A stretch of 64,000 bases of DNA from Streptomyces sp. B21-083 (GTDB lineage Bacteria; Actinomycetota; Actinomycetes; Streptomycetales; Streptomycetaceae), in assembly GCF_036898825.1 (NCBI RefSeq), contig NZ_JARUND010000002.1, forward strand, positions 4,650,001-4,714,000, in the 5' to 3' direction. Each line of letters starts with the position of its first letter. The stretch's first letter is position 1. The position numbers and the translations under genes are program-made. Positions 11,869 to 58,301 of the stretch are shown here, piece after piece. The notes under the pieces are model-generated. The model was not told where the DNA came from. It saw only the letters and a program-made list of their open reading frames with translations, and made no database searches.

Positions 11869-12038
11869 GGCAACTCACCTCGCCGCCGGGTATGGGAGAC
11901 GGTTTTCCGCACGCGGAACCGGTCATCTCGGGCACCGCCCTTTCCAGCGTAGGTCGCAGGAGGGAAGCACGACGGGTCCGGCCCGTGACGTCGTCCGCCG
12001 CCCCCGGCGGGCGGCTGGACGACGTCGCGGCCCAGGAC

Positions 12039-25989: not shown

Positions 25990-26340
25990 TCAGCGTGGCA
26001 GTTGAGACAACATCTGCGCGAGGCTGTCCGAGAACTCAGACATGTGCGATTCGGCGGCATATCTCACGGTGCAGGCGGCAGAGACCAGCTCCAGCGCCGA
26101 ATAATCACCACTCGAAAGCATCTTCGCGCACATCCCTAGGGGAACTACGAAATCTGCTTGCGCACCATCCGATAGCGAATCGAGCGTGTCGTCTTCCCCT
26201 GCGAGAACCAGCTCCACGATCGAACTCAAAACTCCCACCGCCCTTGGAGCATCTACTCCACGGGCGAGCTCAATCATGTCTTCGTATTCGGCAAACCCGA
26301 ATCGATTAACCTGGAGGTGCTCTCTGGCCACATCAACCAC
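25990..26340 (-). CDS. Probable immunity protein for the RHS/HINT toxin
   Basis: The frame extends to GTG 26421, but that start lies deep in the toxin gene; GTG 26340, overlapping the toxin stop by eight bases, seems more likely and gives 116 residues. The protein is acidic and helical (FGFAEYEDMIELARG, VLSSIVELVLAGEDDTLDSL, FSDSLAQMLSQLPR) with no recognised family. Immunity function is inferred from its position directly downstream of the toxin tip on the same strand and from its lower GC, as seen with toxin tips. Confidence 0.5.
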   Translation of the reverse strand: MVDVAREHLQVNRFGFAEYEDMIELARGVDAPRAVGVLSSIVELVLAGEDDTLDSLSDGAQADFVVPLGMCAKMLSSGDYSALELVSAACTVRYAAESHMSEFSDSLAQMLSQLPR

Positions 26341-33253: not shown

Positions 33254-33321
33254 GACTGCACTCCCGGTTCGTGTACGAGTCTGCTGAAGATCTGTTGGTT
33301 CGCCTGTGAAGGGGGTCGCCG

Positions 33322-36300: not shown

Positions 36301-36966
36301 CGAGACGGGGAACCTGATGCTCGACAGTTCCTCGGTTTGGGCCGCTTCCCGCGACTTGACTACCACGTTCTCGCTGAAGCCGTCCGGCGTGGCCTGGACG
36401 ACCAGGTCCGTACCCGGCATGACATCCGCGTACGTCGCGGTGGAGCCTGACAACGTCGGCGCGGGCAGTGTCCACGGCGAGTCGACGCGGTACGCCTTCC
36501 CGTCCTTGGTAATGCTCGCCAGAGCGTTACCAGATCCACCTCCGGAGAAGGCGACGTCCGCTGCGGAGGCGATCGGTACAACCTGACCGGCCGAATTTGT
36601 TTCCAGGGCGGTGTCGACAGGAACCCATCCGGACGCCTTCTCCACCCGCACCGGAGCCGGATCGAACTCGACGGTGAACGTGCCGTCCGGCTGGGCCGTG
36701 ACGAGTTGCGTGGGAGTCGTCTCCGCACTTACCTCAACAGGCGAACCGGATTTCGCTGCTCTTCCCGAAGCAACCGCCTCCGGCGACAGGTCACCGGTGT
36801 CGGAAGTCGCCGACGATCCTTGCGAGGCTGTAGCGGGTACCGCCTGGGCATTCGCGACACTCAGCATGGGCACGAGGAGCACCGATGCTACGAGCCAACC
36901 TTGCCCCTTCACTCGCCTGCTGTTTCCACTCACGCCGACAACGCGACGCCCCCCACCCCACCACAT
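33322..36966 (-). CDS. Secreted LamG-domain protein, RHS partner
   Basis: 1214 residues with an N-terminal signal peptide (VASVLLVPMLSVANAQAVPA). The middle has the DNRLRE-type region common to these proteins (SLYQFDTHTLGGKKILSATF) and a fibronectin-like segment. Two LamG/concanavalin-like domains form the C-terminal third, recognisable by FTASAWVRLTGSSHNAVAL and FTVAAWAKLDAAALSD, each ending FNIGRG- or QIARGQYGG-type strands with an ENIADLQ or DDVRVWTG segment. Such proteins usually precede RHS toxins in streptomycetes and may act in surface display or carbohydrate binding. Start ATG 36966 follows AAGGCGGGGG; GTG 36933 is an alternative. Confidence 0.82.
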   Translation of the reverse strand: MWWGGGRRVVGVSGNSRRVKGQGWLVASVLLVPMLSVANAQAVPATASQGSSATSDTGDLSPEAVASGRAAKSGSPVEVSAETTPTQLVTAQPDGTFTVEFDPAPVRVEKASGWVPVDTALETNSAGQVVPIASAADVAFSGGGSGNALASITKDGKAYRVDSPWTLPAPTLSGSTATYADVMPGTDLVVQATPDGFSENVVVKSREAAQTEELSSIRFPVSVDGVSVRDTNSGSAAFVDDQGRPVFTTGTALMYDSSTVSTPAPAAASRISKASFTVAAAASDEAGNVSDGPAPGARSTAMDLTLSDDALTLKPDKAFLDDPDTTYPVVLDPLTTGASLSGWTTVWTSSPSTSFWKTSHALGVGYDAWVDNKKARSLYQFDTHTLGGKKILSATFTALEVWSANCTAKSVQLWRTGSISSGTTWNAQPPWSAQVDSVPTAKGYSSSCPGSNVEFDATKAVSYTAGESASTTTLGLRAADESDEIAWKQFASPSDIKPSLSVTFVSKPSVPTGVKLSSPSLACSTGLGTAAVLHDTTPALAAAPKSADGSQSTLRPNFEVYRYDANATDPSAGSGSPTAYTTSGTAGTWTTPTLTNGQTYWFRARSEYKYSFNSKTGYMYSAWSPACWFRIDTTAPVQPDVDSSTYQECASPDTPEDCTAYGGVSVPATFILKANGASDVVKYTYQLNDNPVRTKTFATATSSYSVSLVPDVRGLNTLTVQTWDSAGNSSSQSYTYHFKVAPGAGPLSQWSMDEGTGTAAADALGGKSATLAGSSTWSDHARLGKSVQANGTSAYAATASSVLDTTKSFTASAWVRLTGSSHNAVALAQAGTNGSAFALYYSTSYNAWVFNRYATDVVAPTIIRSISTTTPEIGVWTHLIGVYNAQEQTIQLFVNGIPQGDPVAYTTAWQATGGLQIARGQYGGAFSDYFPGQVDEVTVWNRTLFKEEIADLQAMSDPGTGQARPMLAADWNMEETSGTSAADSSGYGHNATLAAGGTWTTDIDGGRGNILALDGTATANASAAGPIVDSQGDFTVAAWAKLDAAALSDTSVAHHMRITTQSGGVRDSWGLWYDQAAGSAQGMWVFGRTTADTTSGTVVTVPTNIASAQLVDPGDWTLLTGVYDGAHHQLFLYVNGIRQGAQGDTDTDDDTGDGIVFTQPWQATGTFNIGRGRISTGAYSDYAHSLVDDVRVWTGVMSDTAINQMYLTENRIPL

Positions 36967-37855: not shown

Positions 37856-39529
37856 ATGCAGCAGCTCGAGGCGCAGGAAGTGTCCCTGCACAAGGTTTTC
37901 AGCAGCGACTACGACTTCAGGATTCCGGACTACCAGCGTCCGTACGCCTGGGACGTCGAGCAGGCCGTGCAGCTGCTCACCGACTTGGAGGAGTCGCTGG
38001 ACAGGGGGACGGACGAGCCGTACTTCCTCGGCTCCATCGTCCTCGTCAAGGCGAAGGGGAACGCGCCCGCCGAGGTCATCGACGGCCAGCAGCGCCTCAC
38101 CACCCTGACCATCCTGCTCGCCCTCCTTCGCGACCTGACGGAGGACCCCGACCTGCGCAGCGATCTTGACAAGCTGGTCACGGAGCCAGGCAACAAGGTC
38201 CGCCGGCTCGACCCCAGGCCCAGGCTCACCCTGCGCATCCGCGACGCCGGCTTCTTCCAGCAGTACGTCCAGACGACGGGAACCACCGAGGCGCTGCGGG
38301 CCCTGAAGGAGGAGACGCTGCCGACGGATGCGCAGAAGGCCGTCCTGCGTAACGCGGAGGCGCTGCACGCGATACTCGCCGTCTGGTCGGAGGAGCGACG
38401 GCTGGACCTTGTACAGATGCTTGGTGCGCGCACGTTCCTGGTCGTCGTCAGCACCCCTGATCTGGACAGCGCGCACCGTATCTTCAGCGTGATGAACTCC
38501 CGGGGGGTGGACCTTTCGCCCACGGACATCTTCAAGTCGCACATCATCGGTGCTCTGGACGAGAAGACCTCAGAGGAGTGCGCCCGCAAGTGGGAAGACG
38601 CGGAGGAGGCCCTGGGGCGAGACGACTTCGCCGACCTCTTCCTTCACCTGCGCATGGTGTTCGCCATGAAGCGGGCTGAGCGGGAACTGCTCAAAGAGTT
38701 TCCCGGGCAGGTGCTCAGCCACTACCTGCCCGGCAAGGCCGAGTCGTTCGTCAACGACGTCGTCGTGCCGTACGCGGACGCCTACGTGCAGATCCGCGAC
38801 GCCAGATACTCGGCGGCCTCTGGGGCTGAGCGGGTCAATGCCTGGTTCAAACGCCTCCAGCAGATCGACAACAACGACTGGCGTCCCGCGGCCCTGTGGG
38901 CGCTGCGTAACCACGGCGACGACCCTGCCTGGCTCGACGGATTCTTCGGCGCACTGGAGCGGCTGGCGGCCAGCATGTTCATCCGCCGCGTCTACACCAC
39001 TCCCCGCGTCACGCGTTACGCGGACCTCCTGCGCGAACTCAACGCCGGCAAGGGCCTGGCTGCGACGTCCTTCGCCCTGACGGACACGGAGAAGGCCGAG
39101 ACACTCGCGCGTCTGGACGGCGACATATACCTCGTCACCAAGACCCGTAAGTACGTCCTGCTGCGCCTGGACGAGATGCTGGCCGGAAAGCCCGGAGTCT
39201 CGTACGACCACACCCTGATTACCGTCGAGCACGTGCTGCCGCAGAATCCGAAGCAGGCGTCCCAGTGGCTGCGGCACTTCACCGACGAACAGCGCACGGA
39301 GTGGACGCACCGGCTGGGCAACCTCGTCCTGCTCAACCGGACGAAGAACGCCTACGCACAGAACTACGACTTCACAGAGAAGAAGGCCAAGTACTTCACC
39401 GGCAGGCACGGCGTCTCCACGTTCGCCCTGACCAGCCAGGTGTTGCAGCACCAGGAGTGGGCGCCGGAACTGCTGCAGAAGCGGCAGCCTCGGCTCGTGG
39501 GGTTGCTGGCCGACGAGTGGGATCTGTAA
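37856..39529 (+). CDS. DUF262/DUF1524 protein (GmrSD-like restriction enzyme)
   Basis: 557 residues, single polypeptide. The N-terminal DUF262 has IPDYQRPYAWD (23-33) and the nucleotide-binding signature DGQQR at 76-80. The C-terminal DUF1524 HNH nuclease has EHVLPQNP near 458 and HRLGNLVLLNRTKNAYAQN near 486-505. Related proteins (GmrSD, and similar single-chain type IV enzymes) use NTP hydrolysis to cut DNA with modified bases, usually phage DNA. Start ATG 37856 follows GGGGGC. It stands alone with no partner gene, inside the island, consistent with an autonomous anti-phage gene. Which modification it recognises is unknown. Confidence 0.85.
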   Translation: MQQLEAQEVSLHKVFSSDYDFRIPDYQRPYAWDVEQAVQLLTDLEESLDRGTDEPYFLGSIVLVKAKGNAPAEVIDGQQRLTTLTILLALLRDLTEDPDLRSDLDKLVTEPGNKVRRLDPRPRLTLRIRDAGFFQQYVQTTGTTEALRALKEETLPTDAQKAVLRNAEALHAILAVWSEERRLDLVQMLGARTFLVVVSTPDLDSAHRIFSVMNSRGVDLSPTDIFKSHIIGALDEKTSEECARKWEDAEEALGRDDFADLFLHLRMVFAMKRAERELLKEFPGQVLSHYLPGKAESFVNDVVVPYADAYVQIRDARYSAASGAERVNAWFKRLQQIDNNDWRPAALWALRNHGDDPAWLDGFFGALERLAASMFIRRVYTTPRVTRYADLLRELNAGKGLAATSFALTDTEKAETLARLDGDIYLVTKTRKYVLLRLDEMLAGKPGVSYDHTLITVEHVLPQNPKQASQWLRHFTDEQRTEWTHRLGNLVLLNRTKNAYAQNYDFTEKKAKYFTGRHGVSTFALTSQVLQHQEWAPELLQKRQPRLVGLLADEWDL

Positions 39530-39685: not shown

Positions 39686-41272
39686 TCAGGAAGCCGAACC
39701 GTCGAGGCCGAGGCGGATCACGGCGAGTGCCTCGGCGATCTCGACGGTCATCTCGTCGTCGGGGCCGAACACCATGCACATGTCCTGGTGGAGCGGTTCG
39801 AGGACCTGCCGGGCTTCGACGGCCCGGCCCTGGGCGAGCAGCAGCATTCCGATGTTGTGTCGTAGCTCCACGGCTTCCTCGCTCACGTCGCTGTCGACGG
39901 CCCGTACGACGTGCAGCACGCCCTGGAGTGCTGCGAGCGCGTCGGTGACCTGACCGAGTTCGGCGCGGCACCGGGCCGCCTGGGCGCGGCAGGCGCGGGC
40001 CTGCTCGGTGGTGGGTCCGGTGATACGGGCGTACGCGTCGGCGAGGGCGTCGAACTCGGGCAGGGCGGCCCGGTAGTCACCGCCGAGGAGGCGGATCGCT
40101 GCCCGCTGGCGGCGCAGCGCCAGGACCGGTTTGCTCTCGGAGCCGAGGGCGAGGGCTGCGGGTTCGATGACCTCGCCGAGTACCTCGGCGGCCTGCGCGA
40201 ACCGTTCCTGCTCCAGCAGAGTGTCGGAGTGGGCGTACGCCTCCTTGATGTCCTCGCGCAGCTGGGCGGGGACGGGCACGGGCTGGGCTCCGGGGAGGAT
40301 GGCTGTCGGCGTCGAACCCCCGGGTGCGGGGGTCTGGGCGCGGGCGCGGGGCGCGAATGGGTGACGGAACACGCCTGTCGGGTCGGGTGCGCCGGCTGGC
40401 CCGGCATCGGCTGTGCCGGGCTCTCCGTCTGGCGGCGGGAGGAACGGCAGCAGTCGCGCGTACACCTCCTGCGTGTCGGCGGGCCGCGCCTCGGGCGCCT
40501 TGCGCAGCAGGTGCAGGACCAGCTCCTCCAACGCCTCGGGGACGTCGGGCCGCAGTTGTCGCAGCGGGATGGGGGCGGCGTTGACGTGCTGGTACATCAG
40601 CAGGTACTCGTTCTCCGCCTCGAACGCGAGGCGCCCGCTGAGGAGTTCGTGCAGCACGCAGCCCAGCGCGTACAGATCGGTCTGCGGGGTGACACGCCCA
40701 CCGCGGACCTGTTCGGGCGACATGTACTGGTGGGTGCCGATGGGGCTGCCGGTGGCGGTCAGTTTGGTGACGTCGGTGCGCAGGATCGCCGCGATGCCGA
40801 AGTCGAGGACCTTCACGGTGCCGTCGCGTGCGACGAGGATGTTGCCCGGCTTGAGGTCCCGGTGGATGACCGGCACGTCGTGCGCGTACGACAGCACGGT
40901 CGCGATCTGCGCGGCGACGGCTGCCGCCCAGCTGACCGGCAGCGGTCGGCCGGGGTCGAGGTATGCGGACAGCGGTACGCCGTCGACGAGCTCCATCACC
41001 AGGAACAGGCGCTCGTACGACGCGTCGAGCACCGCGTCGTACACCTGCGGCACGCCGGGGTGCTGGATGCGCGCGGTGATGCGGGCCTCGCGGCGGAAGC
41101 GTTTGGCGAACTCCTCGGCCAGCTGAGGGGAGGTGACCGACGCCTGCCGGATGAGCTTCACCGCGACGGGCCGGTCGAGCACGGCGTCGTAGCCGCGCCA
41201 TACGTCGCCCATGCCGCCGTGGTTGAGCTCCTCCAGGAGTTCGTAACGGTCGGAGATCGCCTCCTGCGGCAC
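39686..41272 (-). CDS. Serine/threonine protein kinase with C-terminal TPR-like region
   Basis: 528 residues starting GTG 41272. A complete Hanks kinase domain covers about 9-270: G-loop ELNHGGMGDVWRG, VAVKLIRQ, catalytic HRDLKPGNILV, DFGIAAI and SPEQVRGG. A Pro/Thr-rich linker (270-340) leads to a helical repeat region resembling TPRs (YAHSDTLLEQERFAQAAEVL, ACRAQAARCRAELGQV). No membrane segment, so it is soluble. It converges with the DUF262 gene and is separated from the TerY-P operon by an intron relic, so a shared role is only possible. Confidence 0.88.
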   Translation of the reverse strand: MPQEAISDRYELLEELNHGGMGDVWRGYDAVLDRPVAVKLIRQASVTSPQLAEEFAKRFRREARITARIQHPGVPQVYDAVLDASYERLFLVMELVDGVPLSAYLDPGRPLPVSWAAAVAAQIATVLSYAHDVPVIHRDLKPGNILVARDGTVKVLDFGIAAILRTDVTKLTATGSPIGTHQYMSPEQVRGGRVTPQTDLYALGCVLHELLSGRLAFEAENEYLLMYQHVNAAPIPLRQLRPDVPEALEELVLHLLRKAPEARPADTQEVYARLLPFLPPPDGEPGTADAGPAGAPDPTGVFRHPFAPRARAQTPAPGGSTPTAILPGAQPVPVPAQLREDIKEAYAHSDTLLEQERFAQAAEVLGEVIEPAALALGSESKPVLALRRQRAAIRLLGGDYRAALPEFDALADAYARITGPTTEQARACRAQAARCRAELGQVTDALAALQGVLHVVRAVDSDVSEEAVELRHNIGMLLLAQGRAVEARQVLEPLHQDMCMVFGPDDEMTVEIAEALAVIRLGLDGSAS

Positions 41273-42198: not shown

Positions 42199-43152
42199 CT
42201 ACTGGCGGGGTGCTCGCAAGTCGATCGGTGTCCGATTGCGCACTCCGTCCAGGACCGTGTGGTCGACGGACGGGCGAGGTCGGGGTGCCGCCGCGGTGAG
42301 GGTGATCATGCCGCGGTCGCTCAGCGCCGTCTGCCACTCGCTCGGGCGGGGACGGGTTCCGCGCTCGCCCGCGGCCTGGGCGAAGAGGCTTCCCACCGCG
42401 GCAGCCTGACGCTCGTTGAGGCATCCGGCGACGGGCCGCAGCTGCTGGTCCGGTCTGGCGTACGGCTCCTGCGCGAGAATGCGCCCCGCGGTGAGGGCCG
42501 TCTTGTACGCGTCCGTGTCGACGCTCGCCTCGGTGGACGGGGCGAGCGGGTCGTTCCAATCGGGAGTGGCGGCCTGGGCCTGGACGGCGTTACGCCCCAC
42601 CCGGCGGAAGCCGTCACAGTCCAGGAAGTGGACGGCGGGTTCGGGTATGAGGGACCACAGGATGTTGGCCTGCGAGATGTCCCCGATCACCAGTCCGGCG
42701 TCGTGGAACCAGCCGATGGCCTCGACGCAGGCCAACGCGAGAGCCCTGCGTTGCTCAGGAGTCGGCTGCGACACCTCCTGCCAGGCCACTTTCGGAGGCC
42801 TGATCAGATACTGCAACTCGAGGAGCTTCGTCGCTCCGGTCGCGGTGCGCCACGTCATGGGAGACGGGGCACGCCGCATGAGGAAACCGAGTGTCCGGCC
42901 GCCCTCGACCACACGGCACAATGGCCAGGCGGCGAGGGCGTCCAAACGGGTCCGATCGGCCTGGCCGAGCCCCTGCCGGAACGCGACCAGGTCCGCGAGC
43001 GCATTGCCGTTGACCTTGGACGGGTCCTTGTACTCTTTGTAGAGCAGCGACCCGTCGCCGACGGCATGCACCTCACCCTGGCCGCCGATGCCGACCCGTT
43101 CCCCGAGCGTGAGCGGCGAGCGGGCGACGTCGGCGCCGTCCTCCGCGCTCAT
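42199..43152 (-). CDS. TerY-P triad protein kinase
   Basis: 317 residues from ATG 43152, which overlaps the phosphatase stop by four bases (ATGA). The kinase-like domain has a G-loop GIGGQGEVHAV (22-32), Lys39 in LLYKEYKD, a catalytic loop GDISQANIL with Asp158 in place of the usual HRD arrangement, and LDCDGFRR near 178-182 for the metal-binding DFG. This divergent form matches the kinases found with vWA and PP2C proteins in TerY-P triads. It is the last gene of a five-gene minus-strand operon and would act as the kinase half of a phosphorylation switch opposed by the PP2C. Confidence 0.85.
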   Translation of the reverse strand: MSAEDGADVARSPLTLGERVGIGGQGEVHAVGDGSLLYKEYKDPSKVNGNALADLVAFRQGLGQADRTRLDALAAWPLCRVVEGGRTLGFLMRRAPSPMTWRTATGATKLLELQYLIRPPKVAWQEVSQPTPEQRRALALACVEAIGWFHDAGLVIGDISQANILWSLIPEPAVHFLDCDGFRRVGRNAVQAQAATPDWNDPLAPSTEASVDTDAYKTALTAGRILAQEPYARPDQQLRPVAGCLNERQAAAVGSLFAQAAGERGTRPRPSEWQTALSDRGMITLTAAAPRPRPSVDHTVLDGVRNRTPIDLRAPRQ

Positions 43153-44294
43153 GCCTGCTCCTCCCACACGCAGATGACGGTCCGGTCGTCGTCGTAGGAC
43201 TTGGCCCGTGTCTGCGCCTGCCACAGGAAGTCGGACAGGGAGGGGACCTCGGGCCCGCCCCACGCTTCGGCGAGGCGGCGCGCGAACTCCGGGTCCTTCT
43301 GGGTGAGGGGGTTGGTGATGCCGTCGGTGCCCAGCAGCAGAACCTCGCTCGGCACGGTACGCAGCAGAGTGGCCTTGACGCTGCGGTAGGCGTGCGGGAG
43401 AGCCTCGGTGCGGGTGTCGAGCAGTCCTTCGCCGTCGTCCGGGTCCCCGTGTTCCCAGCGGCCCTCACGCAGCACGAACAGGCCGCCGTCGCCGACGCTG
43501 CACAGAACTCGGTCGCGGATGCGCGGGTCTGTGGGGATCAGGAGGACGTGCAGCGTGGTGGCGTAGTCCTGGTCGGCGTAGGGACGGGGCTTGTGCTGTG
43601 CGGTACGTGCCCACCCGGAGCGAAGTTCGGCAGCCGCGCCGGCGACCGCCTTGGTGGCCAAGACTCGAAGTTCGTTCTCGTCGCCAGCACACACCGCCGC
43701 GTAGATGTTCTCCGCCTCCCGGTCCAGGAAGACGGCTGCCAGGCGCGAGAACTGGTAGGAACCCACATGCGAGTACACCGCGGAGCCCACGCCGTCGGCG
43801 ACCGCCAACAGAAGCATCTCCGCATCCGGGGGACCGATACGCGTCATCGTCATGGCGTCCTGGCGGCAACTGCCCTCCCAGTTGTGGGAGTCGCCGCGCA
43901 CGGAGGCGGCACGCACGGTCAGTCGCCCGATGAGGGCCCCGTCCAGCAGGACCGCGGGGGAGAACGCGGCAGATTCATCCGCGTCCCGCACGGAGGGACG
44001 TCCCAGAGGGTGGGGCGGATAGCTGGGAGGGCGGTTGCCTACGTGCGAGGGTGCCCCCCGCAGGAGTCCGGTTCCGGTTTCCGTTGACGACGCGAGGTCC
44101 TCCGGCGTCAGAGGTGCCGACGGCGCCGTGGGGACAGCGGTTCCCGGCCCCGAGGTGACCGGGTCGACCGGCACGGCACCGTGCGCCAGGCTCCTGATCC
44201 GCGCGTCGTGGTCGTCGGTATCGCGAGCCCCGCCGAAGAGCCCGGCATCGTCCTGCGCGCCGCGGAATCCTCCGTCGTACACCGGGCCGCTCAC
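43149..44294 (-). CDS. TerY-P triad PP2C phosphatase
   Basis: 381 residues. The first ~115 are low-complexity Pro/Thr-rich; the PP2C_2 domain then begins (VRGDSHNWEGSCRQDAMTMT), with the metal-binding VADGVGSAVYSHVG, a CSVGDGGLFVLREG block, LLLGTDGITNPL and YDDDRTVICVWEEQ at the end. The Asp residues needed for the two metals are present. It overlaps the vWA gene (upstream) and the kinase gene (downstream) by four bases each, so the three products should be made together. Confidence 0.88.
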   Translation of the reverse strand: MSGPVYDGGFRGAQDDAGLFGGARDTDDHDARIRSLAHGAVPVDPVTSGPGTAVPTAPSAPLTPEDLASSTETGTGLLRGAPSHVGNRPPSYPPHPLGRPSVRDADESAAFSPAVLLDGALIGRLTVRAASVRGDSHNWEGSCRQDAMTMTRIGPPDAEMLLLAVADGVGSAVYSHVGSYQFSRLAAVFLDREAENIYAAVCAGDENELRVLATKAVAGAAAELRSGWARTAQHKPRPYADQDYATTLHVLLIPTDPRIRDRVLCSVGDGGLFVLREGRWEHGDPDDGEGLLDTRTEALPHAYRSVKATLLRTVPSEVLLLGTDGITNPLTQKDPEFARRLAEAWGGPEVPSLSDFLWQAQTRAKSYDDDRTVICVWEEQA

Positions 44295-44959
44295 AGCTTG
44301 TCCAGGGAGACGCGAGTGAAACCGGGCACGTGGTCCTGGACGTCGAGGTGGAATCCCTCGCCGCCCTGGGAGTCCATGCTGGTCGCCGAATTGACGATGG
44401 ACCGGGTGAGGGACGAGGCGAACTCGCGGAGCGCGACGGCAGGGGTGACGGACTGGTCCTGCTGCATGAACGCCTTGAAGTTGGCCACTTCCGAGATGAT
44501 CGCGGCGTCGGCGTCCCCGATCCCGAACGCGATGATCTTCGGCGCGTAACGGAACGCGTTCAACTCTTTGAGCACGGTACGCCAGTCGTCGTCCGTGGGG
44601 ATGCCGTCGGAGAGGAAGAACACCACCGGCCGGTACACGTCGTGGCCCTCCGACTTGAGGGCCGCGACGTCCATGTCGATGGTGTCCTTCAGCAGACGGA
44701 AGGCGGCACCGAAGGAGGTCACCCCGCCTGCCGACAGGGATGGCAACTGCGTCAGCTCGCTGAGGTCGGCGAGCGGCTGCAACAGTGAAGCCTGGGTCGA
44801 GAAACCGATCAGTGCGAAACGGGTCTTGTCCGCGACGCTCGGATTGGTGCTGATCTCGTGATGAAGGTCAGGCAACGCCGCGTTGATGGTGTCCACGCCG
44901 TCAGGTCCAGCCATGGAACCGGACTCGTCGCACACCATGTAGAAGGGCAGGATCTGCAT
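44291..44959 (-). CDS. TerY-like von Willebrand factor A domain protein
   Basis: 222 residues with good AGGAGA site. A complete MIDAS is visible: DESGS at 11-15, the Thr in GVTSFGAAF, and the acidic SDGIPTDD. This is the vWA domain of TerY-type proteins, which in TerY-P triads bring the kinase and phosphatase to a target, often with TerD proteins. It is the third gene of the operon, 39 bases after the small membrane protein. Confidence 0.88.
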   Translation of the reverse strand: MQILPFYMVCDESGSMAGPDGVDTINAALPDLHHEISTNPSVADKTRFALIGFSTQASLLQPLADLSELTQLPSLSAGGVTSFGAAFRLLKDTIDMDVAALKSEGHDVYRPVVFFLSDGIPTDDDWRTVLKELNAFRYAPKIIAFGIGDADAAIISEVANFKAFMQQDQSVTPAVALREFASSLTRSIVNSATSMDSQGGEGFHLDVQDHVPGFTRVSLDKL

Positions 44960-44998
44960 GAGCTCTCCTGAGCGTAGGCGTAGGTAACGGCGCAGCCG

Positions 44999-45502
44999 TC
45001 AACGGGTGTAGAAGTAGATCTCCAGATCGGCGGAGCCCGCGGAACCGCCGTTCCAGAAGTCCCGCGTCGTCGCGTCGGTGAACATGTCCGGTCGCGCCTT
45101 CCGTAGAGACTTGTTGATCTCGCGCGCGTACGCCTGGCCGTCACTGGGCTCGGGGGCCTGACCGAAGGTCAGCACGAAGGCGGCGGCGTGACCCTCGTAG
45201 CGGGCGGTCGCGGCACGGAGCTGGCTGACCATCCGTGCAGTGTCGCCGACCGTTGCCGTCACCTGAACCTTCACCGGTTTGCGCTCCACGGACCGGGGCC
45301 CCGACGGTGTCGGACTCGGTTCGGGTGACGGCCCGGCGTCGGCGGACGAAGTGGACGGGGAAGGGCGAGCGGCGGCCTGCGCGGCCAGTGGATCGCCCCG
45401 GTCTCCCATGGACACGATGGCGAGTACGAGCAGCATGTCGGCGAAGAGCCACCCTGCGAGATGCAGCGGAGTGAAGCGGAAGCCTCTTCTCACCGGGCTC
45501 AC
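44999..45502 (-). CDS. Single-pass membrane protein, MotB/ZorB-like
   Basis: 167 residues. One N-terminal membrane segment (LHLAGWLFADMLLVLAIVSM, about 13-33) contains an Asp at 22; a Pro/Ser-rich linker (45-70) leads to a soluble domain with VKVQVTATVGDTARMVSQLR, EGHAAAFVLTF and AYAREINKSLRKA. An Asp in the single membrane helix and a helix-strand domain outside are features of MotB, ExbD and ZorB. The OmpA-like fold is suggested only by pattern. It overlaps the next membrane gene by four bases (GTGA), so the two probably form a complex. Confidence 0.6.
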   Translation of the reverse strand: MSPVRRGFRFTPLHLAGWLFADMLLVLAIVSMGDRGDPLAAQAAARPSPSTSSADAGPSPEPSPTPSGPRSVERKPVKVQVTATVGDTARMVSQLRAATARYEGHAAAFVLTFGQAPEPSDGQAYAREINKSLRKARPDMFTDATTRDFWNGGSAGSADLEIYFYTR

Positions 45503-46947
45503 CGTCCGGATCCGATCCCGGCCCGCAGCTCCTTCGCCTGCCGCAGCTCGTCCTCGGCCCGCTTCTGGGCGGCTTCGGCTCCCGCCCGGGCCGCCTCTGC
45601 CTCGGAGCGGGCCGTCTCAGTCTCGGCGCGGGCCGTCTCGGTCTCGCGCAGGGCCCGCACCAGGGCGTCGGTGACGCTGGTGAAACGGTCGGCCGCCTCG
45701 TGGAGGGCGAGGCTGCGGGCCTCGATGCCGAGCAGGGCCTCGCGCGAGACCTCCGCGGCCTCACCGGTGCGTTCGGCCACCGCACCGAGGTCGTTGAGCA
45801 GCCGGCCGTTGACGTCCGCGACGACCTCGATGCCGGTGGTGAACCCGCGTTGCGAGGCGGCCAGTACCGTCAGGGAGTCCTCGACCTGCTGCGCCGCGTC
45901 CGACAGCGCCTTGTGGACGCTGGTGCCGTTGGCGCTGACCGCGGTCTCCAGCCGGTCCGCGGTACGGGCGAGGAGATCGCGCATCCTCTCCCCGGCCGCC
46001 CGCAACTCTTCCGCCGCCTTATCGAGGACACTGGTCTGTCCGCTGACCGCGTCGGCCAGCCGCCGGCCCGCCTGCGTCACCGGGCCGTCCAAGCCCTGCA
46101 CGGCGGTCTGGATGGCCGTCCCGCTGTCCCGCACGGTCTCCTCGATCCGCAGCACCACCTGCTCGATCGGCCGCACGTACGCCTCCACCTGGGCAAGACG
46201 CTGCTCCGCCTTGTCCATCGCCTTGCCCACCACCTGGGCGGCCCGGGTGAGTTCCTCCTGCGTGGCGATGGCCTTGGTCTGCATGCGCTGGATCCGCCCG
46301 GCCGCCGAGTTGAGCTCCGCCGCGAAGCGTTGCGGGGAGGCGAACCGATGCTCGTTGAGCGAGAGCTGTGCCCTGGTGAGGACCGGGACCAGGCGGGCAA
46401 GGGCCGTACGGGTGCGCCCGCGCGCCTCCTCCTCACGACGTTCGGCGGCAGTGCGCCGGTAGCCGTGCACTGCGGTAAGGACGAACAGCATCGCCAGGGT
46501 CAGACACCCGCCCACGGCGACGTGCCCGAAGCGGAAGATGCCGCCCAGGTGCCCGTCAAACCCGGACTGCCAGAGCTGAAGGAACGGCCGACCCGCGGCC
46601 TTGGGGTCGTCGCCCGTGAGCGCCCCGTACGCACTGGACGCCTGCCACAGGCCGAACCAGGTGAACAGCAGCGGCAGGAAGACCAAGGCTCCCAGAACCC
46701 AGTCCAGCGCCGAGTCGAACCGTGTGCCACGGCCGTCGGTCACAGGCTCGGCGATGCTCTCGGGTCGGGCGAAATTCACCATCAGGTCGAGATCGGCCCA
46801 CGCGTCGAGGGCTTCCGTGTCGGTGGAGCCGAGTGCCTGAGCCAGTGCGCGCAGTTCTTCGGCGCGCGGTGCGAGCGCAGGATCCTGCGCAAGGTCCTCG
46901 AGGTGACGTGCCGTCACCCCTTTGTCGAGTTGTATCCCCGCGAACAT
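45499..46947 (-). CDS. Membrane protein with long coiled coil, candidate MotA/ZorA-like partner
   Basis: I use ATG 46947 (MFAGIQLDKGV; the GTG six bases earlier is too close to the ribosome site). 482 residues: a soluble start, a membrane segment at about 82-103 (WVLGALVFLPLLFTWFGLWQ), another at 140-161 (VAVGGCLTLAMLFVLTAVHG), then coiled coil from about 165 to the end with heptad-like AEQRLAQVEAYVRPIEQVVL and a terminal Glu/Ala repeat. Two membrane helices plus a long cytoplasmic coil resemble ZorA tails, but the MotA signature is not obvious. It is the first gene of the minus operon and diverges from the TerD gene. Confidence 0.6.
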   Translation of the reverse strand: MFAGIQLDKGVTARHLEDLAQDPALAPRAEELRALAQALGSTDTEALDAWADLDLMVNFARPESIAEPVTDGRGTRFDSALDWVLGALVFLPLLFTWFGLWQASSAYGALTGDDPKAAGRPFLQLWQSGFDGHLGGIFRFGHVAVGGCLTLAMLFVLTAVHGYRRTAAERREEEARGRTRTALARLVPVLTRAQLSLNEHRFASPQRFAAELNSAAGRIQRMQTKAIATQEELTRAAQVVGKAMDKAEQRLAQVEAYVRPIEQVVLRIEETVRDSGTAIQTAVQGLDGPVTQAGRRLADAVSGQTSVLDKAAEELRAAGERMRDLLARTADRLETAVSANGTSVHKALSDAAQQVEDSLTVLAASQRGFTTGIEVVADVNGRLLNDLGAVAERTGEAAEVSREALLGIEARSLALHEAADRFTSVTDALVRALRETETARAETETARSEAEAARAGAEAAQKRAEDELRQAKELRAGIGSGR

Positions 46948-47161
46948 TCCCACCCCTGCCCGGTGTACGCCGGGACGTTCTTGCCTATCCGAGCGCAGCG
47001 ACGGTGGGGCCGGGACCAGCGGCGCGTGCCCCCTGCCGCGCGGAACTTAACTGGTGGAGACTTTCACATCTTTTTCACCAGTCGCGCCATAATAGACGAC
47101 CATCTCATCGGCGGACGGGTGGCATGAAGGTCATGCGAAATGCTGAACCAGGGGAGTTTCC
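46948..47161. promoter_or_regulatory. Divergent promoter region of TerD gene and TerY-P operon
   Basis: These 214 bases separate the two divergent transcription units. An AT-richer stretch with CACATCTTTTTCACC and GCGCCATAATAGACG lies at 47065-47100 and could hold a promoter. No repeat clear enough to call an operator was seen. The shared region suggests co-regulation of the TerD protein and the operon. Confidence 0.4.
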
Positions 47162-47836
47162 TTGAGCGGTGACGGCAGACGACGGGGTGTCATCCAGCTG
47201 ACCGGAGGCGGGGCTCCCATCGAGTCCGAGAGGCGGTCGGCCCGGGAGCCGGTGCCGCGTACGCGTACGGTGGAGCTCTCCCGGCAGACTCCACGTGCCG
47301 AGATCACGGGCCGGGGTGTCCTCCAGGTAAACCTCAGCTGGTCGGTCGCCTCCGAGGCCGATCTCGACCTGGGCTGCATGGTTCTCACCCGCGACGGCAT
47401 GGGTATCGCCGTGCAGCCACTCGGAGCGGCGTTCGGCGATCTCGACGCCTGGCCCTACGTCAGTCTCGACCAGGACGACCGGACCGGCGAGACCTCGGAC
47501 GGGGAGACGCTGCGGATCAGCTTGGAGCACCGTCGTCAGTTCACCAAGCTCCTCGTCTACGTGTACATCTACGAGGGGGCGGCCGACTTCCGAACGCTCG
47601 GAGGCATCGTCACCGTCAGCGCCCCGAGCGGCACCTGGCGCATCCACCTCGACGACTCCCCGGCAGGGGCCACCTCGTGCGCCATCGCCCTGCTGATCCC
47701 GGGGCGCGACACCCTCGACCTCCGGCGCGAGGTCCGCTGGTTCACCGCACGGCCCTGGTCCATGAACCAGCAACTCATCGACCGGGCATACGGCTTCGGC
47801 TTCGAGTGGGTGCCCGGGGTCAAGCCTCCTCTGTGA
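47162..47836 (+). CDS. TerD-domain protein
   Basis: 224 residues from TTG 47162, six bases after GGGGAG. The TerD domain is recognisable from LQVNLSWSVASEADLDLGCM on, with the calcium-binding-type VSLDQDDRTGETSDGETLRI, LLVYVYIYEGAADFRTLGG and a C-terminal YGFGFEWVPGVKPP. The spacing of Asp residues agrees with TerD proteins of tellurite and stress-resistance loci, which bind calcium. It is the only plus-strand member of the locus and is divergent from the coiled-coil membrane gene. Confidence 0.85.
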   Translation: MSGDGRRRGVIQLTGGGAPIESERRSAREPVPRTRTVELSRQTPRAEITGRGVLQVNLSWSVASEADLDLGCMVLTRDGMGIAVQPLGAAFGDLDAWPYVSLDQDDRTGETSDGETLRISLEHRRQFTKLLVYVYIYEGAADFRTLGGIVTVSAPSGTWRIHLDDSPAGATSCAIALLIPGRDTLDLRREVRWFTARPWSMNQQLIDRAYGFGFEWVPGVKPPL

Positions 47837-48254: not shown

Positions 48255-48923
48255 CTACTTCACATCCTTGGCCAGGACGGCGACGGCGACCCTGCCCACC
48301 ACCGTCGTCAGGACGTAGTTGGTCGAGCTACTGAAAGCGACACCTACGCCGGCTGGAATCGCCTTGGCCATCGCCTTCTGGGTGAAGGTGATGGACACCC
48401 GCTTGAACAACTGCTTGATTGTGACCAAGGCGGGACCTTTCAGGTACTGGTAGACCAGCTTCTCGGCGATCTTCTGGACCGCTGCCTTGCCGCCCTTTGT
48501 CGCCATCTGTTCTGCCGAACCCGCCAACGCGAGCATGAAGGCGAGGTGCTTCTTGTCCTCACCGCTCAGCTCGGTCTCGTACACCTCAACGAGGCACATG
48601 CACATATCGATCTGGAGCTTGAGTGCCGCGGCGATGTCAGTGAGACCGCCGCCCAAGACTGCGACCGCCGTACCGACACCCGGAATCACGCTCGGGGCTG
48701 CGGTGACCGCCCCAGCGGCTGCCGAAAGTTTGGAGTATCGGCCAATTATCTTGGCCGCGACCCGGCGCTTGTCTTCCAGGCTCTCGGGCTCCCGCTTGAA
48801 CTTGGCCTCGAAAGTCGCACGATAACCGGCCACGAGCGTAGCGGCCGCCTCCGGCGTGATGGCGATCCCCTCGACGACCTTCTGGAGCCGAGACGCCTCG
48901 GGATCGTCCGTCGCGTGGTCCAT
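48255..48923 (-). CDS. EcsC-like protein
   Basis: I choose ATG 48923 (MDHATDDPEASRLQKVVEGI), five bases after GGGAGGGG; 222 residues. An upstream ATG at 48953 has no ribosome site. The hydrophobic Ala/Gly/Pro block APSVIPGVGTAVAVLGGGLT followed by IAAALKLQIDMCMCLVEVYE is the hallmark of EcsC-type proteins, with further amphipathic segments (MATKGGKAAVQKIAEKLVYQ). It may associate with membranes. Function is unknown; it lies between the TerD locus and the restriction operon. Confidence 0.65.
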   Translation of the reverse strand: MDHATDDPEASRLQKVVEGIAITPEAAATLVAGYRATFEAKFKREPESLEDKRRVAAKIIGRYSKLSAAAGAVTAAPSVIPGVGTAVAVLGGGLTDIAAALKLQIDMCMCLVEVYETELSGEDKKHLAFMLALAGSAEQMATKGGKAAVQKIAEKLVYQYLKGPALVTIKQLFKRVSITFTQKAMAKAIPAGVGVAFSSSTNYVLTTVVGRVAVAVLAKDVK

Positions 48924-49034
48924 TGTTTCCCCTCCCGATTCGTTGCCGCTCATGAATGAGGACAACTTGCACTGCGCACAGACTTGATGCACTTCAAGGT
49001 GCCCCGGCCGGCACATCCGGCCGGAGCGTACGCA

Positions 49035-52000
49035 TCAGATGCCGTCGTCCAGGCCCTCCTCGCGGCGGATCATCCGCCAGGCGGCCTTGCGGGCGCTGCG
49101 GTCCAGGCTGGACTTGAAGCCCTTGTCGGGGCCGAAGTACTGGCGGCCCATGCCTGCGATGGTGTCGATGTGGTCGGCCATCTTGTCCGCGAAGACGTTG
49201 TCGAAGACGAGGCCGAAGTTGTCCTCGTCGTTGACGACGGCCGCCGCCCGCACCTTCGGGTCGGCCTTGGCCTCCTCGAACGGGCGGATGACGTCCTGCT
49301 CGGTGAACTCGGTGCCGAAGCGTTCGTTGAACTTGTCGATCAGCTGGGAGAGCAGCGATTTCTCCGCTTCCTTCGCGCCGCCCGAGCCGTCACCGAAGCC
49401 CTGCATCGTCGTCGGCCCCTCGGCGGTGAGGGAGACGTCGTACTCGCCGGTCTTCTCGACCCGCATATGGCTGAGGTCGATCTCGCCTATGTCCACGCCG
49501 CCGTCCGCTCGGCGCGGCAGCCGGTTGAGGAGGTAGCGGCCGTAGAGGTGCAGCCGCTCCAGCTCGGCGTCCCGGTAGGGAACGATCTGCGCGAGGAAGC
49601 CGTACTTCCTGACGTAGTCGTTGAGGTCGGCGCGAAAACCCTCCGCCGTCTCCTGGTCGTCCTCGTCCTCGCTCTCCAGCAGAGGCGTGAAGCGTGCGAC
49701 GGCGGGGGAGAGCAACCGGTACAGCTCGGCGTGCAGCTTCTCCCACTTGGACTGCGAGCCCGCCGCCTTCTCCTTGGCGGCGAAGTACGCGGCGGCGAAC
49801 TCGTCCATCTCCTGCCCGGACAGGATCGGCGCCTGCATGACCCGGCTCTGCGCGGTGTAGAGCAGGTTGGGGTCGGAGGGGAGGGTCATCGCCTCCTCGA
49901 AGTACGGGCGGAAGGACTCCTGTATGTCCTCGGCCTTGTTGACGAAGTCCAGCACCGCCAAGTCCGCCTGCGTCTTGCGTTCGGCGGTCCGGTTCAGCCG
50001 GGACAGGGTCTGTACGGCGGAGATGCCGGTCAGCGTCTTGTTGACGTACATCGTCGTGAGGAGCGGCTGGTCGAACCCGGTCTGGTACTTCTCCGCGACG
50101 ACCAGGATCCTGTACTCGCGCTGTCCCGCTCCGCCGGCACGGGCGGCCTTGTCGTCGGCGCGTGTGTACGCGAACGCCTTCGGCAGCGCGCTCTCCGACA
50201 GCCCGCCGTTCTCCTTCGGCTCGGTGGTCTCCTCGCCGTCGACGGTGAGCGAGCCGGAGAAGGCGACGAGGACACCCAGATCGGGGTACTTGGTGTCGTA
50301 GTCCCGGTCCTTGAGGTAGCTCTTGATGGCACGCGCCATCTGTACCGCGACCTGCCGGGAGGCGGTCACCACCATCGACTTGGCCCGCCCGCCGAGACGG
50401 CCCCGGCTGTGCGCCACGAAGTGCTCCACGATCACCTGGGCATGCTGGGCGACCGTCGAGTCATGGGTCAGCGCGTACCGGGCGAGCAGGCCGTTCGCCT
50501 TCGACGGGTCGACCTCCTTCTCGTCAGGGTTCTTGTTCACCAGCTTCCAGTACGTGTTGTACGTGACGTAGTTGCGCAGCGGATCGAGGATGAAGCCCTC
50601 CTCGATCGCCTGCCGCATCGAGTACGTGTGGAAGGGCCGGTAGGTCGCCTTGCCGTCGATGTCCTGGAGCGTGCCGAAGAGTTCGAGGGTCTTGGCCTTC
50701 GGCGTGGCGGTGAACGAGAAGTAGGAGAGGTTCGCGGCACGGGAACGCTGCTCGGCCCGCTTCTTGAGCTGCTCGTCGAGGGTGGCGGCGGCGGCCGGGG
50801 CCTTGACCGTGGTCGCGCCCGCCTCGTCCGAGTCGGAGTCCAGGCCGAGGTCGCGCAAGGCCGACCGTACGGCGGTGGCGGCGTCGCCGGACTGCGAGGA
50901 GTGCGCCTCGTCCACGACGATCGCGAAGCGGCTGCCCCGGATCTCGGTCGGGTTGCGCTGGAGGTAGTCGAGCAGCGCCGGGAACGAGTGCAGGGTGACC
51001 GTGACGATCTTCCCGGTGTCGCGGGAGAGGGCCTTCGCGAGCTGCTCGCCCTTCGCCCCGTACTTCTCGTCGATCTTCACGACGAGCCCCGCGGTCTGCT
51101 CGAAATTGCCGACGGTTTCACGGAGTTGGGCGTCAAGGTTGCGGCGGTCGGTGATGACGATGACCTTGTCGAAGACCGGCACGCCGGGCTTGAGGCCCTT
51201 GACCAAGGCCTCGGCGTCGAGTTCACGCGGGTCGGTGGGGGTGTGCAGGTCGCTTAGGCGGTGCGCGAGCCAGCCGATGGTGTTCGACTTGCCCGAGCCG
51301 GCCGAGGCCATGACCAGGTAGTCGTGGCCGGCGCCGTGCGTTGCGGCGTGCGCGGTGAGCTTCTTGACCGCGTCCCACTGCTGGAACCGGGGGAAGACCA
51401 TCGTCTTCGTGGTGCCGCCGCCGGGCGTCTTGCTTTTGTGCAGGTGCACGAACCGCTGGAGCAGGTCCAGCCAGTTGTCCGGCTGCCAGACCTGTTCCCA
51501 GAGGTAGGAGGTCGCGTACGTGCCGTAGGCGGTCGGGGCCGGGTTGCCGGAGCCGCCCGGCTGGCCGGGGCCGTTGGAGCCGGTGTTGAACGGGAGGAAG
51601 CGGGTGTTCTTGCCCTTGAGCTGGGTGGCGACGAAGACCAGGTCCGGGTCGACGGCGAAGTTCGCGACGACCCGGCGCGTGAAGATCAGTTCGGTGGGGT
51701 CGCGGTCGGTACGGTACTGCTCCTTGGCGTGCTCCACCCCCTGCTTGGTCAGCGGGTTCTTCAACTCGGCGGTGGCGACCGGGATTCCGTTGAGGAAGAG
51801 GGTGAGGTCGAGCTTGTTGCCCCAGTCGGCCTGCTTCGTCGCGTACACGAGTTCGCGGACGACGGTTAGGCGGTTGGCCCGGTAGCTGTCGAGCACGGAG
51901 TCATGAGCGACGAGGTTCGGCTTGAAGTAGGCGACGCGGAGGAGGACGCCCCGGTCCTTGACGCCGTTGCGGAGGACATCGAGGAGCCCGTTGGTGGCGA

Positions 52001-52238
52001 TGGCCTGGTCGAGTCGGCCGGCGAACCCGCGCTGCGCCTCGTTCGGGTCCCCGCCGTAGACGGTGAGCAGCTCACTCCACTCGTCGGGCTGGGTCGCCCC
52101 GATGAACGTGAACAACTCGTTGGTGTCCAGGCCGAGATCGGCCCGGTAGTCCTGCGGGCGAGCTTCGCGCCAGCCGCGCTCGACCATGGCGGCGACGATG
52201 GCATCACCGAAGGCGGACTCTGTATGGATAGGGCTCAT
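49035..52238 (-). CDS. hsdR: Type I restriction enzyme R subunit
   Basis: 1067 residues from ATG 52238, two bases after the hsdS stop. The nuclease motif is Asp144 in NKLDLTLFLNG with Glu158-x-Lys160 in ATAELKNP. The helicase motor follows with Walker A SAGSGKSNT, DEAH box VVDEAHSSQSG, SFTATPK and the later motif VVAEKYQTGFDQP. The C-terminal helical part (FRPYFEEAMTLPSDPNLLYT) binds the methylase core in relatives. It translocates and cuts DNA that lacks the methylation set by HsdM/HsdS. Last gene of the hsdM-hsdS-hsdR operon. Confidence 0.95.
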   Translation of the reverse strand: MSPIHTESAFGDAIVAAMVERGWREARPQDYRADLGLDTNELFTFIGATQPDEWSELLTVYGGDPNEAQRGFAGRLDQAIATNGLLDVLRNGVKDRGVLLRVAYFKPNLVAHDSVLDSYRANRLTVVRELVYATKQADWGNKLDLTLFLNGIPVATAELKNPLTKQGVEHAKEQYRTDRDPTELIFTRRVVANFAVDPDLVFVATQLKGKNTRFLPFNTGSNGPGQPGGSGNPAPTAYGTYATSYLWEQVWQPDNWLDLLQRFVHLHKSKTPGGGTTKTMVFPRFQQWDAVKKLTAHAATHGAGHDYLVMASAGSGKSNTIGWLAHRLSDLHTPTDPRELDAEALVKGLKPGVPVFDKVIVITDRRNLDAQLRETVGNFEQTAGLVVKIDEKYGAKGEQLAKALSRDTGKIVTVTLHSFPALLDYLQRNPTEIRGSRFAIVVDEAHSSQSGDAATAVRSALRDLGLDSDSDEAGATTVKAPAAAATLDEQLKKRAEQRSRAANLSYFSFTATPKAKTLELFGTLQDIDGKATYRPFHTYSMRQAIEEGFILDPLRNYVTYNTYWKLVNKNPDEKEVDPSKANGLLARYALTHDSTVAQHAQVIVEHFVAHSRGRLGGRAKSMVVTASRQVAVQMARAIKSYLKDRDYDTKYPDLGVLVAFSGSLTVDGEETTEPKENGGLSESALPKAFAYTRADDKAARAGGAGQREYRILVVAEKYQTGFDQPLLTTMYVNKTLTGISAVQTLSRLNRTAERKTQADLAVLDFVNKAEDIQESFRPYFEEAMTLPSDPNLLYTAQSRVMQAPILSGQEMDEFAAAYFAAKEKAAGSQSKWEKLHAELYRLLSPAVARFTPLLESEDEDDQETAEGFRADLNDYVRKYGFLAQIVPYRDAELERLHLYGRYLLNRLPRRADGGVDIGEIDLSHMRVEKTGEYDVSLTAEGPTTMQGFGDGSGGAKEAEKSLLSQLIDKFNERFGTEFTEQDVIRPFEEAKADPKVRAAAVVNDEDNFGLVFDNVFADKMADHIDTIAGMGRQYFGPDKGFKSSLDRSARKAAWRMIRREEGLDDGI

Positions 52239-52240
52239 GG

Positions 52241-53476
52241 CTACGCGGCGACTCCGTCCGTTACGTTGCGTCCGCTGGCGGTGGAGACGTCGAACTGGCC
52301 GGTTACGGCGGCGGTGATGAGGGCTTGGCGGCGTTCGGTTAGGAGCTGCTCCTGGTGATCCAGTTTGCGATGCAGCTGGTCGAGAGCACCGACCCTGATA
52401 TCGAGCAGGCGAACAATCTCGTCCTGCTCTGTGCGAGGGATCGAGGGAATGGGGATTTGCTTCATGGCACCCACGTTGAAGTGAGCTTGGATGCTGCCGA
52501 CGGAGTGCTCCGTAACCCGTGCACTGGCATAGTCCGAGTTCAAAACGTATTGCAAGTACCTCGGCGAGGTCTTCCTGCCGGGGCGCACCACGATGAGATC
52601 GATGCAATTCGCCCCGTCCAGCTCAGCTGGTACCACAGCTGCTGCACCTGCCTGTCCCGTGCGCACAACGACAACGTCACCGGTATTGAGCCGCGACTTG
52701 CGGTTCTCAGCATGTCCCTCAGCACTGATCTGCACGAGGTCACCGGTGCTGATGAAGCCAGGCTTGACGTTTAGGCCCCGCAGCGCGGGAGTCCCGCCCG
52801 CTTCTACATACCACTTGGCTGGAGTAATGACGATTCCAACGGTGACATCGGCCACCAGATACTTCAGAGGTACCAGACCATCAGTCGTCTGGGCTCGTTC
52901 AAGGCCCAGCGTCGACTCGATGACTCGTTCCCGCTTGAGCGTCAGCAAACTTCGCATCTGGCGGCGCTTCAACACCAGCTGGTCGATGCGGGCGGTCTCG
53001 GCGTCGAGGAAGTCGGCGATGCGGCGTTGCTCCTCCAGGGGCGGCAGCCAGAGTTTGACCTCGCCCAACTCCTCAGCATTCAAGTGAGGTTGGGCAGCCC
53101 GAGTACTAGCCAGACTGATTTGATCAAGGACTGCGGTACTCAGCAGAGCGTGGGCCGCGAAGCGCGAGTCGACCGTCTGCGGCGTGACACGCAAGTCGTA
53201 CCCCGGTGCGCTGGCGGTCCATTCACTCGTGATGCGAGCCGAATCGCCGGTGTATGCTCCGCTCCGTACGACAAGGATTTCTCCCTCGTGCAGCAGTGGG
53301 GCTCGGTCCAAGGGCAGATCCTCAAGACGAGCGCGAAGCAGGTTGTTGGCGCTGATCTTTCCCCGGGACACGTTGGTCGCCCGAATGATCGGGACGCCCT
53401 CCTCCGAGAGCGGGGGCGGCTGGCCGAGTCCGTAGCGGATTCGCGCCACCCTCTTGAGCGGAACGTACCCGGTCAT
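52241..53476 (-). CDS. hsdS: Type I restriction enzyme specificity subunit
   Basis: 411 residues with two target-recognition domains, each ended by a conserved helix: LPPLEEQRRIADFLDAETAR near 142-161 and IPRTEQDEIVRLLDIRVGAL near 354-375. It begins VPLKRVARIRYGLGQPPPLS. HsdS reads a bipartite DNA site and positions the methylase. The target cannot be predicted from the sequence here. The start overlaps the hsdM stop by four bases. Confidence 0.93.
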   Translation of the reverse strand: MTGYVPLKRVARIRYGLGQPPPLSEEGVPIIRATNVSRGKISANNLLRARLEDLPLDRAPLLHEGEILVVRSGAYTGDSARITSEWTASAPGYDLRVTPQTVDSRFAAHALLSTAVLDQISLASTRAAQPHLNAEELGEVKLWLPPLEEQRRIADFLDAETARIDQLVLKRRQMRSLLTLKRERVIESTLGLERAQTTDGLVPLKYLVADVTVGIVITPAKWYVEAGGTPALRGLNVKPGFISTGDLVQISAEGHAENRKSRLNTGDVVVVRTGQAGAAAVVPAELDGANCIDLIVVRPGRKTSPRYLQYVLNSDYASARVTEHSVGSIQAHFNVGAMKQIPIPSIPRTEQDEIVRLLDIRVGALDQLHRKLDHQEQLLTERRQALITAAVTGQFDVSTASGRNVTDGVAA

Positions 53477-55482: not shown

Positions 55483-55571
55483 GAGTCCCGGCTTCCTTCC
55501 GAAGAGCGCCGTCCGGGCGGGGGACGGCAGGAATCAAGTGTGGTCGTGTGGGGTCGGACGAGTTGGGCGTT

Positions 55572-57830: not shown

Positions 57831-58301
57831 GGCGTGGGGTCCTGCTCCTCTCGGCTAGTCGGTAGTGAACAGTAAACAGATTACAGCAGTCGTCAAGTCC
57901 TCTGAACTGTTTGACGATGCTTTCAGTATTGTGCTTATCTGGCCCTGCTTACGAATGGAAGGGGCGGCGGCTGCGCGACCGCACTGGGAAGCGCCCTGTC
58001 GCCATACCGCGCCACGCATCCGATCTCTCCCGATCCCTCCACATCGCAACGCGATACGTCAGGGGCCGCGCCCACCCCGCATCCGTTCGGCAATCGCAGT
58101 CGCCGCCCACCGCACGCCGGATGAACCCGCATGACCACCCCGACCCAACAGCCCCCGTTCGGTCGGCCCGCCCCGGGCGGCTGGGGACACATGCCGCCCG
58201 CCGCCCACCCGACACGAACGCCGGGGGCACCATCCGCACCGATCGGGTGCCGGTGTCCGCCCCAACCTCCGAACCAGCAGCCGGCCCTCAGGAGACAGCA
58301 C
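57831..58301. promoter_or_regulatory. Divergent control region between methylase and ATPase genes
   Basis: A 471-base region, AT-richer near 57860-57955. CGTCAA (57891-57896) and TTGACG (57911-57916) form a spaced inverted repeat; GTGAACAGTAAACAGATTAC just before it looks operator-like. The methylase's own HTH is a candidate binder. From about 58080 to the ATPase start the sequence is Pro-rich open frame without a ribosome site, which I treat as untranslated. Confidence 0.4.

Follow-up and report, generated by a model that had tools for sequence, protein, structure and literature searches.

Triads of a von Willebrand factor A (vWA) protein, a PP2C-type phosphatase and a kinase, referred to as TerY-P-like, have been reported as stand-alone defense in the form of Gao et al. 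2020 (as described in PMC7699616 and PMC11090510). Kaur et al. 2020 described a GAP1-N2 GTPase-centric theme with kinase, PP2C and vWA (PMC7159879). Here, a window of 64,000 nucleotides from Streptomyces sp. B21-083 (the whole stretch analyzed; G000:C2:4650001–4714000 of a 10.5-Mb genome) carries a unit of five genes on the minus strand at 42199–46953. As in TerY-P triads, vWA, PP2C and kinase are adjacent and their active sites intact; unlike in these triads, the unit also includes a pair of membrane proteins, for which we coined the names COIL and MOTB. We tentatively read it as a conflict system that couples an envelope complex to a TerY-P-type phospho-switch, with phages or mobile elements as the likeliest opponents. 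Literature searches returned no mention of the COIL–MOTB pair, and neither did searches of the text of PMC7159879, PMC11090510, PMC12839542 and PMC10853773, in a coverage that excludes supplements and Anantharaman et al. 2012.

Five genes in a conserved order

All six reading frames at the locus were confirmed at the positions given in an earlier note on this DNA:

45499–46953, minus strand: COIL, 484 amino acids, A-subunit-like in layout, with two transmembrane helices and a long coiled-coil tail in the cytoplasm
44999–45502, minus strand: MOTB, 167 amino acids, one transmembrane helix with Asp22 and an extracytoplasmic domain of putative OmpA-like fold
44291–44959, minus strand: TerY-like vWA protein, Pfam VWA (E 5e-8), complete metal-ion-dependent adhesion site (MIDAS)
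43149–44294, minus strand: PP2C-type phosphatase, Pfam PP2C_2 (E 2e-20)
42199–43152, minus strand: divergent Ser/Thr-type kinase, ATG start at 43152, kinase motif residues, no Pfam match
47162–47836, plus strand: TerD-like gene (by profile–profile comparison), divergently oriented, optional component
47074–47099, minus strand: conserved element between the divergent genes, 5′ of COIL, with invariant columns in eight aligned intergenic regions; possibly the COIL promoter

As the earlier note had proposed, four-base overlaps join vWA to PP2C (44291–44294) and, if the ATG at 43152 is taken as the kinase start, PP2C to the kinase (43149–43152). The membrane genes lie upstream on the triad's strand and overlap each other (45499–45502), while MOTB and vWA themselves do not overlap, being 39 bases apart.

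With COIL profile A1, a scan limited to a single genome per species yielded 62 loci, whose genes were called with a purpose-made codon-usage caller that leaves starts and small genes rough. In 37 of them (type A; L002–L038), relatives of COIL, MOTB and vWA share one strand and the window's order. The other 25 comprise 22 type B loci (L039–L057, L059–L061), two type C loci (L062, L063) and L058. All five genes stand in the window's order at 35 of the 37 type A loci; at the remaining two (L020, L030) the contig ends after vWA. MOTB of L010 and vWA of L023 each match two frames. The exact four-base PP2C/kinase overlap recurs in 35 of 36 called pairs (the window and 35 loci), and the stop codon lies within ATGA or GTGA for COIL at 37/37, for PP2C at 35/35 and for vWA at 22/35 type A loci. 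Pairwise identities, compared between the five proteins over 35 loci, show correlations of 0.58 to 0.90. Linkage would lead one to expect this, and such a correlation does not by itself show joint function. The order COIL-MOTB-vWA-PP2C-kinase is also kept at a locus from another family of the class (L196).

The distribution is patchy. Among 199 genomes of the same genus, COIL relatives occur in 12. Seven contain a vWA relative of at least 67% identity, each less than 1 kb from COIL, and the next-best vWA matches reach at most 44%; the close vWA type was thus never seen without the pair in these genomes, since all seven of its members adjoin COIL. The other five COIL-bearing genomes hold type B (G333, G431), type C (G286), type C-like (G334) or degenerate loci (G405). 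The latter resembles L058, where only COIL and kinase relatives are present (9959–12177). No match beyond the window's own genome was obtained with the COIL profile in 246 genomes of the phylum, and none among 72,556 records inspected for plasmid carriage; the MOTB profile later spread wider. Three loci (L058, L071, L078) have COIL and kinase relatives with no MOTB, vWA or PP2C between them, an arrangement that probably reflects internal deletion.

Other homes of the membrane pair

At type B loci, MOTB is followed in 20 of 22 cases by a protein of 660–799 residues that appears FN3-like by eye and was negative in Pfam. Kinase/PP2C genes of a single cluster lie on the opposite strand at 18 of the 22 loci, so that the membrane genes are not mostly found without triad components; the four lacking them are L045, L047 and L053, all on short contigs, and L059. 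Seventeen of the 22 have a called vWA protein, and 16 have a called GAP1. For L042 and L048, Pfam names kinase, PP2C and GAP1, with vWA matches below the curated cut-offs; genes for GrpE and Hsp70 stand upstream in L042. These sets resemble the GAP1-N2 systems, from which the unit studied here differs in that the GAP1 family is found at no type A locus and not in window segment 32001–62000.

Type C loci place a dynamin-like GTPase after MOTB and genes for CHAT, TIR and HTH proteins opposite (Pfam on L062 only). Here and at a few other loci, the pair comes without any recognized triad.

A MOTB profile (A7) had matches in 13 of 296 genomes of the class; apart from the window's own genome, we inspected the contexts of ten of the other 12, excluding the two weakest (G510, G681). 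In a protein search, the same profile returned 980 proteins at E ≤0.001 among 8000 scored candidates. The ten contexts include one type A (L195) and one type B locus (L194), and L197 combines the pair with a kinase-like protein. In L196 and L197 the kinase is followed by a BrxD-family ATPase (E 2e-138 and 2e-132). The surroundings at L198–L203 differ (by eye). Assigned by eye, without a model, were SNF2-type and Lhr-type helicases in L196, L197 and L199, GmrSD in L199, restriction genes in L198, and GAP1-like and GTPase-like proteins in L198 and L200–L203; the type B GAP1 profile has no match in L198 or L200–L203. Since relatives of the pair thus stand beside several kinds of putative immune genes, it may be a cell-envelope component that different bacterial defense systems share.

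Membrane proteins, triad and TerD-like gene

The earlier note called the membrane pair motor-like. The term rests on the layout, on a fold match and on two conserved residues: Thr98 in a COIL transmembrane helix is invariant in 80 of 80 aligned proteins, and Asp22 within the MOTB transmembrane helix is present in 75 of 76, the remaining sequence being truncated. A distant MOTB relative in L200 (9460–9939) has Glu in place of this Asp; the acidic charge in the helix is therefore retained. The MOTB outer domain gave a middling match to an OmpA-like fold in structure prediction. Sequence kinship is where the comparison falls short: none of 76 MOTB family members matches Pfam MotB or OmpA, and profile comparisons with MotA, MotB and OmpA scored 15.3, 19.0 and 15.8, against best nulls of 21.1, 30.2 and 22.6. 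Searches of solved structures with the COIL and MOTB profiles returned coiled-coil or chance matches only. Comparison of the predicted COIL structure (predicted local distance difference test 73.7, predicted template-modeling score 0.41) using Foldseek and VIA gave nothing informative; the nearest named COIL relatives come from Streptomyces. 'Motor-like' is thus best taken as an analogy of layout, conserved residues and fold.

The same analogy extends to described machines. Like ZorAB of Zorya (PMC11890865), the pair combines an A-type long cytoplasmic tail with a B-type transmembrane acidic residue and a putatively OmpA-like outer domain, in a probable defense setting; COIL differs in having two transmembrane helices, and ZorA models cover the coiled coil only. 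Membership in Zorya was rejected, as the PADLOC and NCBIfam ZorA matches span residues 180–473, past the transmembrane helices, at no more than 21.6 bits. Over 148 class genomes, the ZorA model matched nine, none above the cut-off; ZorC, ZorD and ZorE were sought through domain scans alone. With the MotAB, ExbBD and TolQR stators (PMC12505986) the pair shares the transmembrane acidic residue, a polar residue in the channel-side helix and, putatively, the OmpA-like fold, but has no detectable sequence kinship.

In the triad, catalytic residues are preserved throughout. The vWA protein indeed has the complete MIDAS ascribed to it (D11, S13, S15, T81, D118), invariant in 38/38 sequences, and the phosphatase, whose PP2C identity Pfam upholds, keeps D146, D167, D324, D369 and D370, including the metal-site Asp, in 36/36. 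The kinase was rightly described as divergent: even at E 1 it matches nothing in Pfam, yet K39, D158, N163, D178 and D180 are invariant in all 36 aligned sequences. By eye, the distant kinase-like protein of L197 has lost the catalytic Asp. The TerY-P kinases described in PMC11090510 carry a C-terminal zinc ribbon or OB fold. The 317-amino-acid kinase here is unlike these forms, having no CxxC pair for a zinc ribbon and a tail too short for an OB fold, as judged by reading the sequence, without searching the tail against models. None of the three triad proteins has a TerY match in PADLOC-DB, the presence of a TerY model in that database being unchecked. Outside the window, the genome has three further TerY-related vWA matches, two of them in tandem at C1:2918368–2919716.

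The divergent gene at 47162–47836, which the earlier note named TerD, proved to be divergently oriented and remotely TerD-like; it does not fit the TerD family model and is an optional neighbor. Its product does not match Pfam TerD (PF02342), nor does any of the 16 members of its family, and a PDB sequence search was negative. Compared with 13 TerD proteins of the same genome, the family profile scored 30.6 over 126 columns (hhalign probability 28.7%, P 0.0006), the best of 30 unrelated families reaching 19.0; this profile–profile comparison alone suggests remote TerD kinship. The gene is present at 23 and absent at 14 of the 37 type A loci, and occurs at none of the 25 others. Elsewhere in the genome, PF02342 has 20 matches, and this gene is not among them.

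Surroundings and possible function

Further genes flank the unit within the window:

37856–39529, plus strand, and 49035–60767: genes for GmrSD restriction, for type I restriction subunits R, S and M, for another N6 methylase and for an SMC/AAA (SMC-like) ATPase
39686–41272, minus strand: typical Ser/Thr kinase with TPR repeats, beside the operon
48255–49016, minus strand: EcsC-like protein between the TerD-like and restriction genes (28.5 bits, Pfam cut-off 30.4)
26333–33391 and 33322–36966, minus strand: two genes, one for a large protein with RHS repeats and a PT-HINT domain, and one for a laminin-G-domain protein

The GmrSD, restriction, methylase and SMC/AAA genes form a defense island surrounding the operon. 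Genes of the same cluster as the TPR kinase adjoin the operon in L005 and L012 as well. The RHS-repeat plus PT-HINT architecture is typical of polymorphic toxins.

The earlier note raised the question of enrichment near restriction systems. Restriction or defense-type neighbors are frequent at window-like loci, in a scan of 20 hand-picked flanking proteins plus two of L002 made without matched control loci. Matches were AAA (L002, L031), AAA_5 and DUF4357 (L003), McrBC and SMC-like (L005), nSTAND1-WD40 (L006), T5orf172 (L007), UvrD and N6 methylase (L008), DEAD helicase (L009), N6 methylase (L010), SNF2 (L012), N6 methylase and MZB (L016) and a weak UvrD (L029). No defense-type match was found in the scanned proteins of L004 (PepSY in one, nothing in the other), L011 (a TerD) and L034 (DUF2201), in two small proteins of L002 and L005, or in the DUF6973 protein of L002. 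Many other type A loci have housekeeping neighbors, which counts against a general link to islands: UDP-glucose dehydrogenase (family 11) and acyl-CoA dehydrogenase (family 12) occur at 14 loci each, while genes of the LytR-CpsA-Psr type (family 5) occur at 12. One type A subclade (L014, L015, L017–L022, L024, L026, L027, L037) occupies a recurring chromosomal site, a cell-wall locus with UDP-glucose dehydrogenase, acyl-CoA dehydrogenase or LytR-CpsA-Psr genes (Pfam on L015 only).

In the conflict reading that we tentatively favor, COIL and MOTB would form a single membrane complex. COIL would supply a two-helix hairpin and the long cytoplasmic coiled-coil tail, and MOTB a transmembrane helix, in which an acidic residue is buried, together with an OmpA-like domain outside the membrane, which may touch the cell wall. 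By analogy to ZorAB and MotAB, ions may pass through the complex, or its tail may move, upon envelope disturbance. vWA, kinase and phosphatase would set or read its state through reversible phosphorylation, probably on the COIL tail, with the TerD-like protein as an optional regulator. This retains the earlier note's proposal, partly supported here, of an envelope pair that could sense or gate a signal under phosphorylation by the triad. A conflict role fits the pair's recurrence beside varied immune-type genes, without being proven by it. In a bolder and doubtful form, COIL–MOTB would be a stator-like machine, driven by ions and not described before, that is either of independent origin or only very distantly related to MotAB and ZorAB. 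Actinomycetes would plug it into several immune systems (TerY-P-type, GAP1/Hsp70, dynamin/CHAT/TIR and BrxD-linked) as the sensor and actuator that they share at the envelope, reversible phosphorylation being the clutch.

Three rival readings each have some observations on their side. That MotA, MotB and OmpA kinship does not exceed the nulls, that COIL has two transmembrane helices only, and that long coiled coils suit scaffolds would agree with a defense system of the same kind in which the pair is a passive anchor, holding triad and partners at the envelope without ion conduction. We consider this rather unlikely, as an acidic residue in the MOTB transmembrane helix (Asp, or Glu in L200) and the COIL transmembrane threonine would be costly for a mere anchor. 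The fixed cell-wall site of part of type A, the remotely TerD-like partner and the absence of a conserved effector gene could instead speak for a role outside defense, in actinomycete envelope or metal stress (or developmental) signaling from a cell-wall sensor to a phosphorylation switch. This seems unlikely given the patchy presence in the genus, the restriction and defense-type neighbors at window-like loci, and the relatives that adjoin CHAT, TIR, GAP1 and BrxD-family genes. Finally, the pair's occurrence without an adjacent triad (types B, C and a few others) would be expected if the two were neighbors by chance; we rejected this highly improbable explanation on the gene order kept at 35 of 37 type A loci and in another family (L196), the seven of seven close vWA relatives beside COIL in the reciprocal test, and the overlaps conserved inside both pair and triad.

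With MOTB Asp22, COIL Thr98 and kinase Lys39 and Asp158 named, the question of what a TerY-P switch targets becomes directly testable. If the favored conflict reading holds, one membrane module would serve several actinomycete immune systems, comparable to ZorAB in Zorya, and the TerY-P switch would gain a physical thing to switch.

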